Source of the DNA: Bacteroidota bacterium
GTDB lineage: Bacteria > Bacteroidota > Ignavibacteria > UBA10030 > UBA8401
DNA: 39,812 nucleotides
Reading direction: 5' to 3'
Assembly (NCBI GenBank): GCA_019455105.1
Contig: JACFMZ010000011.1
Location: 1 to 39,812, forward strand
The notes under the pieces are model-generated. The model searched no databases, was not told the origin of the DNA, and saw only the letters and a list, made by a program, of their open reading frames with translations. Below, in pieces: positions 3,388 to 24,943 of this stretch. Position 1 is the first letter of the stretch. Each line of letters opens with the position of its first letter. The position numbers were made by a program, and so were the translations under genes.

Positions 3388-4910
3388 CGCATTTCAAACT
3401 CCATATCGGCATCACTCATTATCAGCCCGGTTGGGAAATTATTTTATCTCAAATCGGCGTTGACTGGAGCATCTGTAATTTTTCGTCATCATTATCGTCA
3501 AATGACTTCAGCGTAATTATTTTAAATGGCTACGTTAACGAAGAAACTGCGTATTCCCTTCAGCGCTATGTAAAATCCGGCGGCGCCGTTTTAACAATCA
3601 ACGGATACGGAAAAAATATCTTTTTCAAAACATCTACGTCTCGTTATTATTCTACCCTTCATCCGAATGAAGTAGAAGACGGAATGTGGCATTCGCTGTT
3701 TGATTTCCCCGGAACATTTCAAACGGAAGAAAACCCATCGATTGATTTTGAAAAAGGTTTTGTTCTTTCGCTTCCTTTTGATGTCAATGCGTTAATTATT
3801 TCCACTAATGCGGTAAGAAAAAATTTTTGGTTTGAAGGCGTTCTCCGCTATCCGAACGAAATAACTGCCGGTGTTTCCAAAGGCGGACTGCGAAAATTAG
3901 TTCAGCACAAACTTATGCGTCTTCATCATTTTCGAAAACTTCCGTTCATTCATAAATGGTATTTTCCGCAACAAGCGCAGACAGTTTTTACTTTTCGTGT
4001 TGATACGGATTCGGGAACACAGGAGCAGCTTACTACTCTCTTTGAACTATGCCGGCAGTTCGTAATTCCGACAGAATGGTTTGTTGATGTTCAAAGTCAT
4101 GAACAGCAGCTTTCGCTGTTTCGCTCTTTTAATTCTCAGGAAATTGGCGTTCATTGTTACCGTCATAAAATATTTTATGATTATGAGCAGGACAAAAATA
4201 ATTTTTCTACTGCAAAACAATTATTGGAACGCCAGGACATAATTCCAAACGGAATTGCGCTTCCGTACGGAACTTGGACAGAAACGCTCGGGAAAATTAT
4301 TCAGGAATTACACTTTCCATTTTCGTCCGAGTTTGCTTTAAACTACGACGATCTTCCGTTCTTCCCTTTTTGCGAAAACCAGTTTTCAACAACGCTGCAG
4401 CTGCCGATTCATCCTGTTTCAATTGGAATTATGAAACGCGCGCGATTCACTGAAGATGAAATGCGGGAATATTATCTTCATCTAATTGATCGCTATGCTG
4501 TTTTTCGGGAGCCGATTTGCTTGTATCATCATCCCACGCATTTACATTTTTCTGTATTCAAATCGGTTTTTGAAAAAATCCGTAATTTGAATATTTTAAC
4601 GCTCTCATATTCCCAATACAACGATTGGTGGAGAAAGCGTCTCCTCACGAACCCTTCGTATGAATATGACGCAACTAAAAACTCCGTACAGGTAAAAGGA
4701 AATATGCAGGAAAGCGTACATTTACGTCTTACGCTGCACGATGAGGAAATATTTATTCCATCACATGGAATATTTTCGCTTGAAAAATTATCAAAGCGGA
4801 AAGAATTGCGATCGCATACTATTCCGCAGTATGCAAAAAAAATTCGCCGCTTCGATTGGCGTCATCTTCTTATTAACATTCTTGAAAAGAAATATAAAGC
4901 GCGGCAATGA
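3384..4910 (+). CDS. polysaccharide deacetylase-like (NodB-fold) protein with extra N-terminal domain
   Basis: The 508-residue protein starts at a TTG overlapping the preceding stop and ends in an ATGA overlap with the next glycosyltransferase, so it is translationally embedded in the sugar-transfer operon. Residues 1-140 look like an alpha/beta domain with an amidotransferase-like stretch (VIILNGY at 44-50, then YVKSGGAVLTING). Residues about 200-390 resemble a NodB deacetylase: TFRVDTDSG supplies D207 and D209, VHCYRH supplies an H-x3-H pair (H257, H261), LPYGTW follows, and YHHPTH (381-386) sits near the end. These match the usual Asp-His-His metal triad and catalytic segments only loosely. 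There is no signal peptide, so it would act in the cytoplasm on a glycan precursor. Activity is predicted only. Confidence 0.68.
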   Translation: MTHFKLHIGITHYQPGWEIILSQIGVDWSICNFSSSLSSNDFSVIILNGYVNEETAYSLQRYVKSGGAVLTINGYGKNIFFKTSTSRYYSTLHPNEVEDGMWHSLFDFPGTFQTEENPSIDFEKGFVLSLPFDVNALIISTNAVRKNFWFEGVLRYPNEITAGVSKGGLRKLVQHKLMRLHHFRKLPFIHKWYFPQQAQTVFTFRVDTDSGTQEQLTTLFELCRQFVIPTEWFVDVQSHEQQLSLFRSFNSQEIGVHCYRHKIFYDYEQDKNNFSTAKQLLERQDIIPNGIALPYGTWTETLGKIIQELHFPFSSEFALNYDDLPFFPFCENQFSTTLQLPIHPVSIGIMKRARFTEDEMREYYLHLIDRYAVFREPICLYHHPTHLHFSVFKSVFEKIRNLNILTLSYSQYNDWWRKRLLTNPSYEYDATKNSVQVKGNMQESVHLRLTLHDEEIFIPSHGIFSLEKLSKRKELRSHTIPQYAKKIRRFDWRHLLINILEKKYKARQ

Positions 4911-16476: not shown

Positions 16477-17145
16477 TTATTTAAGAATACCGTCGATTAA
16501 AGTAATGATACGATCGGCTTTTTCGGCAAGATTTTTATTGTGGGTAACAACAACAAATGTTTGATGATATTTTTTTCGAAGGTTAAAGATTAATTGATGA
16601 AGTGCGTTGGCATTTTCGCTGTCCAAATTACCGGAGGGCTCATCGGCAAAAATTATTTTTGGAGAATTCATTAATGCGCGGGCAACGGCGACACGCTGTT
16701 GTTCGCCTCCCGAAAGTTCGGATGGTTTATGATAATAACGGCTGGAGAGACCGACTTCTGTTAGCAATTCTTTTGCACGAGATTCGATTTCCGATATTTT
16801 TTTTCCGCTTATTAATGCCGGCATAAAAACATTTTCTAAAGCAGTAAATTCCGGTAAAAGATGGTGGAATTGAAATACAAATCCGATATTTTTATTTCGA
16901 AGAGCAGAAGTTGCTTCATCCGAAAGAGTAGAAATATTTTCGCCGTTAAAATATAATTCTCCGGAAGTTTGTCTGTCTAACAATCCTAATATGTGAAGAA
17001 GCGTGCTCTTTCCGGCACCGGATTGTCCGACAACAGCAATAATTTCCGCTTCACTGATTTCCAGAGAAATTCCCTTTAGAACTTCTATCGAAGAAGTTTT
17101 TCCGGTTCGGTACAATTTTGTAATATTTTTTGCTTGTAAAATCAT
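16477..17145 (-). CDS. lolD: ABC transporter ATP-binding protein, LolD-type (lipoprotein release)
   Basis: The 222-residue ATPase has Walker [13 protein letters not shown] (about 39-50), the Q-loop [18 protein letters not shown], the signature [15 protein letters not shown], Walker [13 protein letters not shown] and the switch histidine in VVVTHN. This is the LolD/MacB/FtsE subfamily. Next to two LolC/E-type permeases it is best read as LolD, powering release of outer-membrane lipoproteins to the periplasmic carrier. The start is the ATG at 17145. A 117-nt gap separates it from the frameshifted permease, larger than the 1-nt gap between the two permeases, and includes an imperfect repeat (see findings). 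MacB-type assignment cannot be excluded. Confidence 0.85.
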
Positions 17146-17262
17146 TTGTACTATCTTTCGATTAGCATTTTAAGTCCCCTCTGTGCGTTTGTTCGAGCGA
17201 CAGCGAGAGGCGAATATTTGTGATTATTTTGAAACTTCAATCATAAAACTTGAAACGATTTT

Positions 17263-18487
17263 TCATTCCCATCTAATCGCTTCTGCAGACAATAATTTCG
17301 CTGCTCGTGTTGAAGGATAAAGTGTCGCGAGATAACACAACAGAAACGTTGAAATTGAGACAATGAGAAAATCAGAAATGCGCATTTCCACCGGAAGTGC
17401 AGGAATAATATAGACGGTTTCGTCCAGCGGAAACCAATGGTAATGTATCTGCGCCCAACATACGATATACGCAAGCATACATCCTAAAATCGCCCCGATA
17501 ATGCCGATAATGATTCCTTCAAATCGAAAGATGTTGCGTATTGCTGATTCCTGTGCGCCCATAGATTTTAATATTCCAATGTCTCGGGTTTTTTCAATTA
17601 CCGTCATAGTAAGCGATCCAAGAAGATTAAATGTTGCGACAATAACAATCAGCGTTAAAATAATAAAAGCTGTCCAACGTTCAACCAGCATTACAGAATA
17701 TAAATCTTTGTGTAAATCAAACCATGTTTGAACAGTAATACCGCTAGCAGAATATTTATTATCGAGTTCTTCTTTTACTTTCTCCGCATCTTCATACGAA
17801 TTCAATCGAAGGTCTATTCCGGAAATATTTTTTTGTATTGTAAATATGTTTCCCTGTAGAAAGAGATGTAAAGGCGTAGACCGCATCATATTCACGATTA
17901 TTTGATTCATAAATTCCCGATACTTCACATTGAATGAGTTTCGGAATCTGCATGGTTAAAAAATAATTATTTACTGATGAGGCGCTTAAAACATACATTG
18001 AATCACCGACATCTAAGCCGAGCTTATCGGCAAGAGAATAACCGAGAATAATTTTATTTCCTTCTCCTTCTTGTAACTCCCCGCTTCCAATAATAATTTT
18101 ATCGTTTAGTCCCGATATTTTTGATAAAGAGTTTGCTTCCACTCCGCGTAAAAAAACAACCCGTGTCGCTTTTTTAGAAATCAGCATGACTTTTCCGCTG
18201 ACAAATTCACCAATACCTGCACTATTCTCATTTTGTAAAAATGTTTCAATCTTATGAAGCTCTTGCGGCGTCGTCTCTCGGCTCACGCTGATTCGTAAAT
18301 GCGGATCAAATCCGACTAAAATATCAGTAACAAGAGAATTAAATCCATTAAAAACTGAAAGAACAATTAATAATGCCGCGACGCCGATGGTAATTCCGAT
18401 AACAGAAATTATAGAAATTACCGTAATGAAAGCTGCTTCACGTTTTGAAACAAGATATCTCTTTGCAATGTACCACGAATAGTTCAT
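17263..18487 (-). pseudogene. LolC/E-type ABC permease interrupted by a 1-nt frameshift
   Basis: Two overlapping frames encode the two halves of one FtsX/LolC-E permease. The upstream frame (18487 to 17792) gives the N-terminal half, with a TM segment at about 21-44 and the MacB-like periplasmic domain up to TGKHIYNTKK. The downstream frame (stop at 17263) resumes with QKNISGIDLRLNSYEDAEKV and the last three membrane segments (TAFIILTLIVIVATF, GIIIGIIGAILGCMLAY, ISDFLIVSISTFLLCY), ending AAKLLSAEAIRWE. The break falls in a run of seven A (17828-17834, T on the + strand). Six A would give a 407-residue protein, close to the intact 406-residue neighbour and matching it across the break. It may be a sequencing error, a slippage site or real inactivation. 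Start at 18487 is 1 nt after the neighbour. Confidence 0.85.
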
Positions 18488-18488
18488 T

Positions 18489-19709
18489 TTACTGTCGTAT
18501 TGCCTTTATCGGATCAAGATTTGATGCGAGTTTAGCCGGTATATACGAAGCCGTTAAACATAATATAATGCTGACAGCCGTAACAATAATAAAATTTTCA
18601 CTTTTGAATAATATCGGTACTGTGCTCATAAAGTAAATTGTACTCGGCAGGGAAAAGAAATGAAATGTTTGCTGCAGCCAGCAGACACTAAATCCAATGA
18701 AATTACCGAGTACTGTTCCGATGATACTAATAATAAGTCCCTGACGAAGAAATATTTTTCTAATATCTTTTGCCGAAGAGCCGAGCGAGCGAAGAATTCC
18801 AATTTGTTTTTTCTTTTCAAGAATCAACATAAGTAGAGTGCCGATAATATTTATTGCCGCAACCAAAGTAATTAACCCGAGTACAAGCGGAATTGGTTCT
18901 TTCTGAAGCTGAATCCATGTAAAAAGATTTCGATATTGTTGATAAATGGATCTGCCGAAAAATGGAAATCCTAATTCGGCAGAAATATTTTTTGCAAAGT
19001 GATTGGCATTTTCGGGATTGTTCAACATAATATCCAAGCCGGAAACTGCATCCGGCATATCAAAAATATCTTGTGCAGCGTGAATACTTGTGTAAAGATA
19101 CACATCGTCATATTCTGCCATTCCGGATTCATAAACTCCTTTTACAATTAAACCGGCAATTCTCGGCTGCACCGTCGCCGAAAACTCAGAAGGAATACCG
19201 AACGCAAGCAATGTATCGTTTATTGAAGCACCCAGTCGAGATAGAAGTTTTCTTCCGATAACACAATCATAAACACCGTCAGAATATTCATTCAATAATA
19301 TTTTCCCTTCAACGAGATATTTTGCAATATCCACTTCATTCGCAGAAGAAATTCCTTTAATTAAAACACCATCCGCTTGATCGTGATAACTGATCATTCC
19401 TTCTTTTGAAACAACCGGGCTAATAGAAACAACATCATTGTGTGTCCGAGATATTGTATTAATTATTTTTTGATATTCTTCGATGGGTTTATTTTGAAAT
19501 GTTGTTATCTGCACATGAGCCGTAAAACTGAACACTTTCCGTGTCAGCTCATGTTCAAAGCCGACGAGAATGGTTAAGGTAATTATTAATGCCGTAACAC
19601 CGAGCGTTACGCCGGTAACAGCAAAGGCGGTAATGAAGGAAATAAATTTCTGGCTTTGCGATTTCTGCGTTTTAAGAAAACGTTTTGCGATGTAAGCAGA
19701 ATAATGCAT
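18489..19709 (-). CDS. LolC/E-type lipoprotein-releasing ABC permease
   Basis: This intact 406-residue permease has the family layout: one TM near residues 25-50 (FITAFAVTGVTLGVTALIITLTILVG, described), a large periplasmic MacB-like domain, and three TM segments in the last 150 residues separated by the LEKKKQIGILRSLGSSAKDIRKIF coupling motif of FtsX permeases. The domain end PAKLASNLDPIKAIRQ is typical. Together with LolD and a partner permease it would extract lipoproteins from the inner membrane. It begins at the ATG at 19709, 2 nt after prfB ends, so it is in the prfB transcription unit. It is a paralogue of the frameshifted gene; which corresponds to LolC or LolE is not decidable. Confidence 0.85.
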   Translation of the reverse strand: MHYSAYIAKRFLKTQKSQSQKFISFITAFAVTGVTLGVTALIITLTILVGFEHELTRKVFSFTAHVQITTFQNKPIEEYQKIINTISRTHNDVVSISPVVSKEGMISYHDQADGVLIKGISSANEVDIAKYLVEGKILLNEYSDGVYDCVIGRKLLSRLGASINDTLLAFGIPSEFSATVQPRIAGLIVKGVYESGMAEYDDVYLYTSIHAAQDIFDMPDAVSGLDIMLNNPENANHFAKNISAELGFPFFGRSIYQQYRNLFTWIQLQKEPIPLVLGLITLVAAINIIGTLLMLILEKKKQIGILRSLGSSAKDIRKIFLRQGLIISIIGTVLGNFIGFSVCWLQQTFHFFSLPSTIYFMSTVPILFKSENFIIVTAVSIILCLTASYIPAKLASNLDPIKAIRQ

Positions 19710-19711
19710 TC

Positions 19712-20822
19712 TTAGGCAATTTTCGGGCTGCTGAACTGCATGAGATATGCTTGAATAAATTCATCAAGATCACCATCCATTACACCTTGAACATCGCTCG
19801 TTTCAACATCAGTGCGGTGATCTTTTACCATATTGTACGGATGAAAGACATATGAGCGAATCTGACTTCCCCATTCTATCTTTTTCTTTGTTCCTTCAAT
19901 GGCGGCAAGGCGCGCCTCTTCTTCTTCACGTTTTAATTGATACAATCTCGATTTTAGCATCTTCATTGCCCGCTCACGATTTTGAAACTGCGATCGCTCT
20001 TCCTGACACGCTACCACGACGCCGGTCGGCAAATGGCGAAGACGAACAGCCGTTTCAACTTTATTAACATTCTGCCCTCCTTTACCGCCTGAGCGATACG
20101 TTTCCATTTCAACATCGGCAGGATTAATTTCAATTTCTATATCATCATCAATTTCGGGATAGACAAAAACAGACGCGAAGGAGGTGTGTCGGCGTTTATT
20201 GGCATCGAAAGGAGAAATTCTCACCAAACGGTGCACGCCCGATTCGGCTTTAAGATAGCCGAAAGCATATTCACCGGTAATTTCAAGGGTGGCGCTTTTT
20301 ATTCCGGCGCCGTCGCCGTCTAAACGTTCAAGAAGGGCAACTTTATATCCTTTTTCTTCACACCAGCGCAGATACATTCGGAGAAGCATTTCTGCCCAAT
20401 CCTGCGACTCAGTTCCTCCGGCTCCCGAGTGAATATTTAAGAGAGCATTTCTTTTATCATCAACCCCGCTCAGCATATTGCGAAATTCCAAATCCGAAAG
20501 CGCATGCTGAATTGTACGAATTTCGATTTCTATTTCTTTTTCAAACGATTCATCCTTTGCTTCTTCAGCAATTTCTATAAGCGCTGTTGAATCGTTAATT
20601 TTCGCTTGAATGGTATTCCAACTGTCAACCCAGCTTTTTCTGGAATTAATCTCCTGCATTATTTTTTGCGCGGCAATATTATCATTCCAGAAATTAGCAT
20701 CAGATGTTTTTTTCTGCAGTTCCGCTAGTTGTGTTTCTTTTCCGTCAATGTCAAAGAAACCTCCGCAATTGTGAAAGGCGCTCTTGAAGTGATTGTAATT
20801 GTTCTTTTGATTCATCAAACAT
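19712..20822 (-). CDS. prfB: peptide chain release factor 2 with programmed +1 frameshift
   Basis: RF2 terminates translation at UGA and UAA. The ribosome-binding GGQ motif is in [15 protein letters not shown] and the codon-recognition SPF motif is in [11 protein letters not shown]. The 23-codon leader starts at the ATG at 20822 ([20 protein letters not shown]) and runs into an in-frame TGA at 20751-20753. Just before it stand GGAGG (20760-20764) and CTT-TGA-C, the known bacterial RF2 slip site. Skipping one base continues as [15 protein letters not shown] to the stop at 19712, giving a 369-residue protein. A simple reading from 20818 (MMNQKN...) is out of frame with the first residues and should not be used. 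Production is thus autoregulated by RF2 level. The ATG shares its A with the TAA of the upstream gene (TAATG). Confidence 0.95.
20750..20765 (-). promoter_or_regulatory. programmed +1 ribosomal frameshift site in prfB
   Basis: On the minus strand the order is CGGAGG (20760-20765), TTT, then CTTTGAC (20750-20756), with a 3-nt spacer as in the classic AGGGGG-TAT-CTTTGAC of E. coli prfB. The internal Shine-Dalgarno-like box and the slow UGA decoding drive the ribosome one base forward when RF2 is scarce. Confidence 0.93.
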
Positions 20823-24570: not shown

Positions 24571-24619
24571 GATTCCTCGCTCGCCCCTACGGGGCTGTAC
24601 CAAGAATGACAAAACAATG
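24571..24619. repeat. GC-rich intergenic hairpin segment
   Basis: GCCCC-TAC-GGGGC (24583-24595) lies in an otherwise AT-rich gap after trxA, within CCTCGCTCGCCCCTACGGGG. The composition differs from its surroundings and suggests a dispersed intergenic repeat, but no second full copy is in the window. Confidence 0.35.
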
Positions 24620-24943
24620 TTAATTTAAATGAGGCGTAATTTTATCAATAAGATTTCGCTTGGGGACAGCGCCGACAAGCTGATCGACAACTTTTCCTCC
24701 TTTGAAAATCAATAAGGTAGGAATACTGCGAATACCGAACTGCGTCGATATCTGCGGGTTTGCATCAACATCCAATTTCCCGAATTTCATTTTTCCGTCG
24801 TATTCTTTCGCAAGTTCTTCAACAATCGGCGCAATCATTTTGCATGGTCCGCACCAGGTAGCCCAAAAATCCACAAGGACAGGCATTTGTGAATCCATGA
24901 CTTCATTCTTAAAATTTGCATCGGTTACTTCTATCGGTTTCAT
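24620..24943 (-). CDS. trxA: thioredoxin
   Basis: The 107-residue cytoplasmic thioredoxin has the canonical [10 protein letters not shown] active site (in [12 protein letters not shown]) and the cis-proline in [11 protein letters not shown]. Length, conserved KLDVDANPQ and the final PKRNLIDKI helix match TrxA. It reduces disulfides of ribonucleotide reductase and other proteins using thioredoxin reductase. A good ribosome binding site (AAGGAG) precedes the ATG at 24943. It starts 22 nt after dnaE, so it is cotranscribed with it, followed by the terminator at 24467-24494. Confidence 0.96.

Follow-up and report, generated by a model that had tools for sequence, protein, structure and literature searches.

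The Lol system is described as essential in E. coli (PMC12846838), and its form in most diderms is a homodimeric LolF with LolD (PMC11784454). The gene layout said to be most common is lolF-lolD (PMC11784454), with lolC-lolD-lolE as another, whereas in the present locus two neighbouring Lol-type permeases precede a LolD-type ATPase (16477-19709), and most relatives within the order retain this layout. In the draft assembly, the second of these permeases (permease 2, 18487-17263, minus strand) is broken by a single-base frame change in a run of seven A. Comparable breaks are known from endosymbionts: in Blochmannia, genes interrupted by one indel within an A-run are not accelerated and may be rescued (PMC3017870). 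Permease 2 resembles the poly(A) frameshifts of Blochmannia and Buchnera in having a single indel in an A-run of a conserved gene without acceleration, but differs in that the run is only seven bases long, the break is found in one species, a deletion is needed to restore the frame and the genome is not extremely AT-rich. Most likely, the extra A reflects no new mechanism, being either an assembly error or a very fresh mutation.

The window, a stretch of 39,812 nucleotides, is part of contig C186 in a draft of 3.03 Mb and 197 contigs (completeness 100, contamination 2.8). Gene order on the minus strand is AtuA, an AtuA ferredoxin-like domain, prfB, permease 1, permease 2, the LolD-type ATPase, groES (named from its sequence) and groEL; a thioredoxin-like ORF of about 107 aa (WCGPC), below the length cut-off of the ORF list, also lies on this strand at about 24590-24930. 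Permease 1 is an intact paralogous Lol-type permease directly upstream of permease 2 (18489-19709, minus strand; 406 aa), with matches to TIGR02212 (263 bits), PF02687 and PF12704. The ATPase (16477-17145, minus strand) begins 117 bp downstream of permease 2 on the same strand, and its TIGR02211 score of 302.8 bits is just below the cut-off of 307.75. Taken together, the two halves of permease 2 have the domain order of a LolC/E permease, MacB_PCD and then FtsX, with PF12704 in the N-terminal half (52.1 bits) and PF02687 in the C-terminal half (55.7 bits), both over cut-off. The halves match consecutive parts of the 411-position TIGR02212 profile (3-215 and 210-411). This likeness to LolC, LolE and LolF, to which the adjoining LolD-type ATPase adds, is qualified by scores of 143.9 and 151.7 bits for the two halves, which, like that of the intact paralogue, are below the curated equivalog cut-off of 362.45. 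Judged by sequence, permease 2 is accordingly termed ‘Lol-type’, and LolCE is not proven. Identity to intact relatives is 29-53% for the N-terminal half and 43-60% for the C-terminal half. No second copy of permease 2 was found in the genome, where the next best match is the paralogue at 32% identity.

The ORF of the N-terminal half (18487-17792, minus strand, 231 aa) and that of the C-terminal half (17928-17263, minus strand, 221 aa, with a GTG at 17928) occupy different frames, with an overlap at 17792-17928. The initial annotation had reported this arrangement, together with the A7 run at 17828-17834 (T7 on the plus strand) and a required shift of +1 (or -2), and all three proved right; the third frame runs into a stop within some five codons, and alignments with relatives switch frame there. 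As far as the run, 17835-18487 (minus strand) encodes in frame the first membrane span together with the larger part of the periplasmic MacB_PCD domain, while 17263-17827 (minus strand) encodes, in the +1 frame, the end of the periplasmic domain and the FtsX domain. At the run the N-terminal frame reads AAT ACA AAA AAA TAT and goes on into an out-of-frame tail, YFRNRPSIEFV (17792-17827, minus strand), with a TGA stop 12 codons past the run; the C-terminal frame reads CAA AAA AAT ATT TCC GGA. The last 12 residues of the N-terminal ORF and the first 32 or so of the C-terminal ORF are thus out-of-frame read-through and not family protein. It is highly improbable that the halves are two separate proteins, the second with its own start. 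Upstream start codons do exist in the C-terminal frame, as at 17928, but the overlap encodes out-of-family residues, the break falls inside the periplasmic domain and so leaves the C-terminal half without the first membrane span, and a split version is found in none of the 87 relatives introduced below.

A comparison with relatives, as the initial annotation had suggested, was made over an order-wide set of 98 genomes, the window's own included, of which 88 have a permease 2 orthologue. The orthologue is whole in all 87 relatives that have it, as one open frame of 367-651 codons, and no broken copy was seen; the window's alone is cut, to 230 codons. The N-terminal half continues into the C-terminal half in a single frame, uninterrupted by stops, in each of the 59 distinct relative genes checked; in L012, which belongs to the same family, the homologous codons are TCA AAA AAT GTT and hold six A. 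The frameshift at the run is shared by none of the 87 relatives in the order, which include no genome of the same genus. Named relatives of permease 2 belong to Ignavibacteria, Kryptonia and unclassified Bacteroidota, their assemblies being for the most part metagenome bins. Because the nearest relatives compared are only about 60% identical, the extra base can be dated only loosely. Most of the 60 relatives examined retain both adjacent permeases, which suggests that permease 1 and permease 2 may have non-redundant roles. At a strict cut-off, no orthologue is seen in three of the order's 75 good assemblies, which may mean either occasional absence of the gene or gaps in these assemblies at that place. 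Two assemblies of 96-100% completeness (G007 and G053) have no permease 2 orthologue at this cut-off, and the first of them has a genome of 1.7 Mb and a sister (G014) that does have the orthologue. Calling permease 2 essential therefore needs care, both because of these missing orthologues and because the scores of its halves, like that of the intact neighbour, fall short of the LolCE cut-off. The sequence flanking the break gave no match in a pattern scan of viral contigs.

Both halves of the gene appear to be under the same constraint as their surroundings. Near-invariant columns, defined against 42-43 relatives, are kept by the window's gene at 32 of 33 positions in the N-terminal half and 47 of 48 in the C-terminal half. 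Its mean distances to the relatives (0.572 and 0.464 for the two halves) are mid-range when set beside the relatives' own (0.566 and 0.456), and much the same holds for the intact paralogue. When only the family is considered, the window stands at a somewhat greater distance, similarly for the N-terminal half, the C-terminal half and the intact permease 1, which fits its position as a lone genus. Codon-position GC is equal in the two halves and their neighbours, and no further stop or frameshift was found in permease 2. A decayed pseudogene was rejected on these grounds, there being no second lesion and constraint being as in the neighbouring genes; the ‘real decay’ that the initial annotation had listed as an option is disfavoured accordingly.

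The lack of any decay sign makes an error or a very fresh change preferable to decay. The very fresh change, a possible explanation that we hold to be the less likely of these two, would be a genuine frameshift of very recent date, or else a strain variant whose sequence ended up as the consensus when a metagenome bin was assembled. Here, replication slippage would have added one A, the gene would be off in the sampled lineage, and it would be too early for decay to show, so that the undecayed state of both halves is what a recent event would predict. A-runs are known to gain and lose bases in this way, the orthologue is missing from a few good assemblies of the order as noted above, and the intact neighbouring paralogue could in principle form a LolF-like homodimer, homodimeric LolF being described as the common form (PMC11784454). 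Against this, the retention of the permease pair across relatives, with none broken, argues that both subunits are needed.

We favour, as the probable explanation, an isolated consensus error of the assembly that placed one extra A in the run. Permease 2 would then be an ordinary Lol-type permease that is whole in the organism, the extra A of the draft being a sporadic error of consensus assembly, and we infer that the extra base is absent from the organism. This reading is favoured because any gene can be hit by an assembly error, whereas true loss of permease 2 is seen in none of the 87 relatives. It is supported by a break that is unique in the order, by the absence of decay on either side of it and by the failure to find a second convincing break at a homopolymer. 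The place of permease 2 in the prfB-permease-permease-lolD-groES-groEL run, the retention of the permease pair and the lack of a second copy also speak for it. The same picture would result from a true mutation of very recent date. The weights that we give to the several explanations are our own judgement.

The frequency of such breaks was assessed in a frameshift survey of about 690 kb of sampled genome stretches, of which about 175 kb could be aligned to relatives. Single alignments with relatives crossed 140 A/T runs of at least seven bases in frame, so homopolymers are not a general weakness of the assembly, and any error at permease 2 would be sporadic. Convincing breaks in the compared coding sequence were limited to permease 2 and one integrase-like gene, and only that in permease 2 lies at an A/T run of seven or more. 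The other is a tyrosine-recombinase/integrase-like gene in L153 (about 4580-4600), with a frame change near a T6 run on the coding strand. A homopolymer-prone sequencing artefact, which would break many genes at long runs, does not describe what was found and was rejected. Among further candidates, that in L143 is a 10-N scaffold gap interrupting a transporter gene, and those in L136, L138, L140 and at window position 20821 seem to be fortuitous alignments with antisense or non-coding frames, rejected because the aligned frames contain stops or lie over a gene on the opposite strand. The draft is fragmented, with scaffold gaps of 10 N and 100 N, and local consensus faults therefore do occur in it.

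Alternatively, the organism may truly carry seven A, with RNA polymerase or the ribosome skipping one of them so that part of the products would be full-length permease. In favour of this, the break coincides exactly with the A-run, both halves are constrained without acceleration, Blochmannia and Buchnera offer an endosymbiont precedent (PMC3017870), and in a laboratory selection indels within runs of 3-8 bases were bypassed (PMC3812077). We nevertheless regard such rescue as unlikely. A run of at least seven A is present in 256 of 433 long ORFs, so that finding A7 at a break says little in favour of slippage, and A7 runs are commoner than in synonymous shuffles preserving the protein and codon counts (322 against 264, sd 12; sampled stretches L092-L110 and L131-L170). 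Only longer runs are depleted: A8 is near neutral (102 against 114, sd 8), A9 is depleted (11 against 45, sd 4) and A10 or longer is nearly absent (1 against 37, sd 4). Runs of at least nine A in long ORFs thus number 12, against about 82 in shuffles, and A6 is in excess along with A7. These counts suggest that the cost of slippage is felt at runs of nine or more A and not at seven, in agreement with a review reporting high-efficiency slippage in vivo for runs of nine (PMC5009743). The direction of published errors is also mostly opposite to the deletion needed here: a transcriptome-wide study of E. coli and Buchnera found that insertions are the main error at A/T runs, with deletions rarely tied to runs and no restored frame (PMC5574713). 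With A7 common and not avoided, this direction of error and no relative broken, a consensus error or a very fresh change is preferred over slippage, which is possible at this run but not favoured.

Programmed +1 ribosomal frameshifting at the run is the explanation to which we give least credence. Its appeal lies in a standard-type programmed +1 site within the same gene cluster, in prfB, the shift in permease 2 also being +1. That gene, read from ATG 20822, encodes 23 residues, then meets CGGAGG TTT CTT TGA C at 20762-20750 (minus strand), which we take to be the standard RF2 +1 frameshift site. The prfB ORF had been listed from TTG 20818, which puts its first codons in the wrong frame; ATG 20822 is probably the real start. 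The RF2-type elements present at 20750-20762 are absent at 17828-17834, where there is no GGAGG Shine-Dalgarno (SD)-like element three bases upstream, no slippery CTT and no CTT-TGA-C, and no stop at the shift point, the next being 12 codons on. The permease site is, moreover, not conserved in relatives.

In summary, the break, the run, the shift direction and the list of explanations given in the initial annotation all stand, and the choice among them, which it had left open, now tends towards an isolated consensus error or a very fresh change. It is unlikely, and in our estimation slightly more so than slippage rescue as such, that the seven A are real and fixed and that base-skipping slippage on A7 is the sole route to a conserved envelope permease in a member of the Ignavibacteria/Kryptonia-like Bacteroidota. 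Were the run both real and rescued, slippage rescue would reach beyond endosymbionts into a larger genome that is not reduced, and a run of only seven would suffice for it. If the extra A is an error, the matter is one of annotation only, and the draft should not be taken to represent an organism without permease 2.
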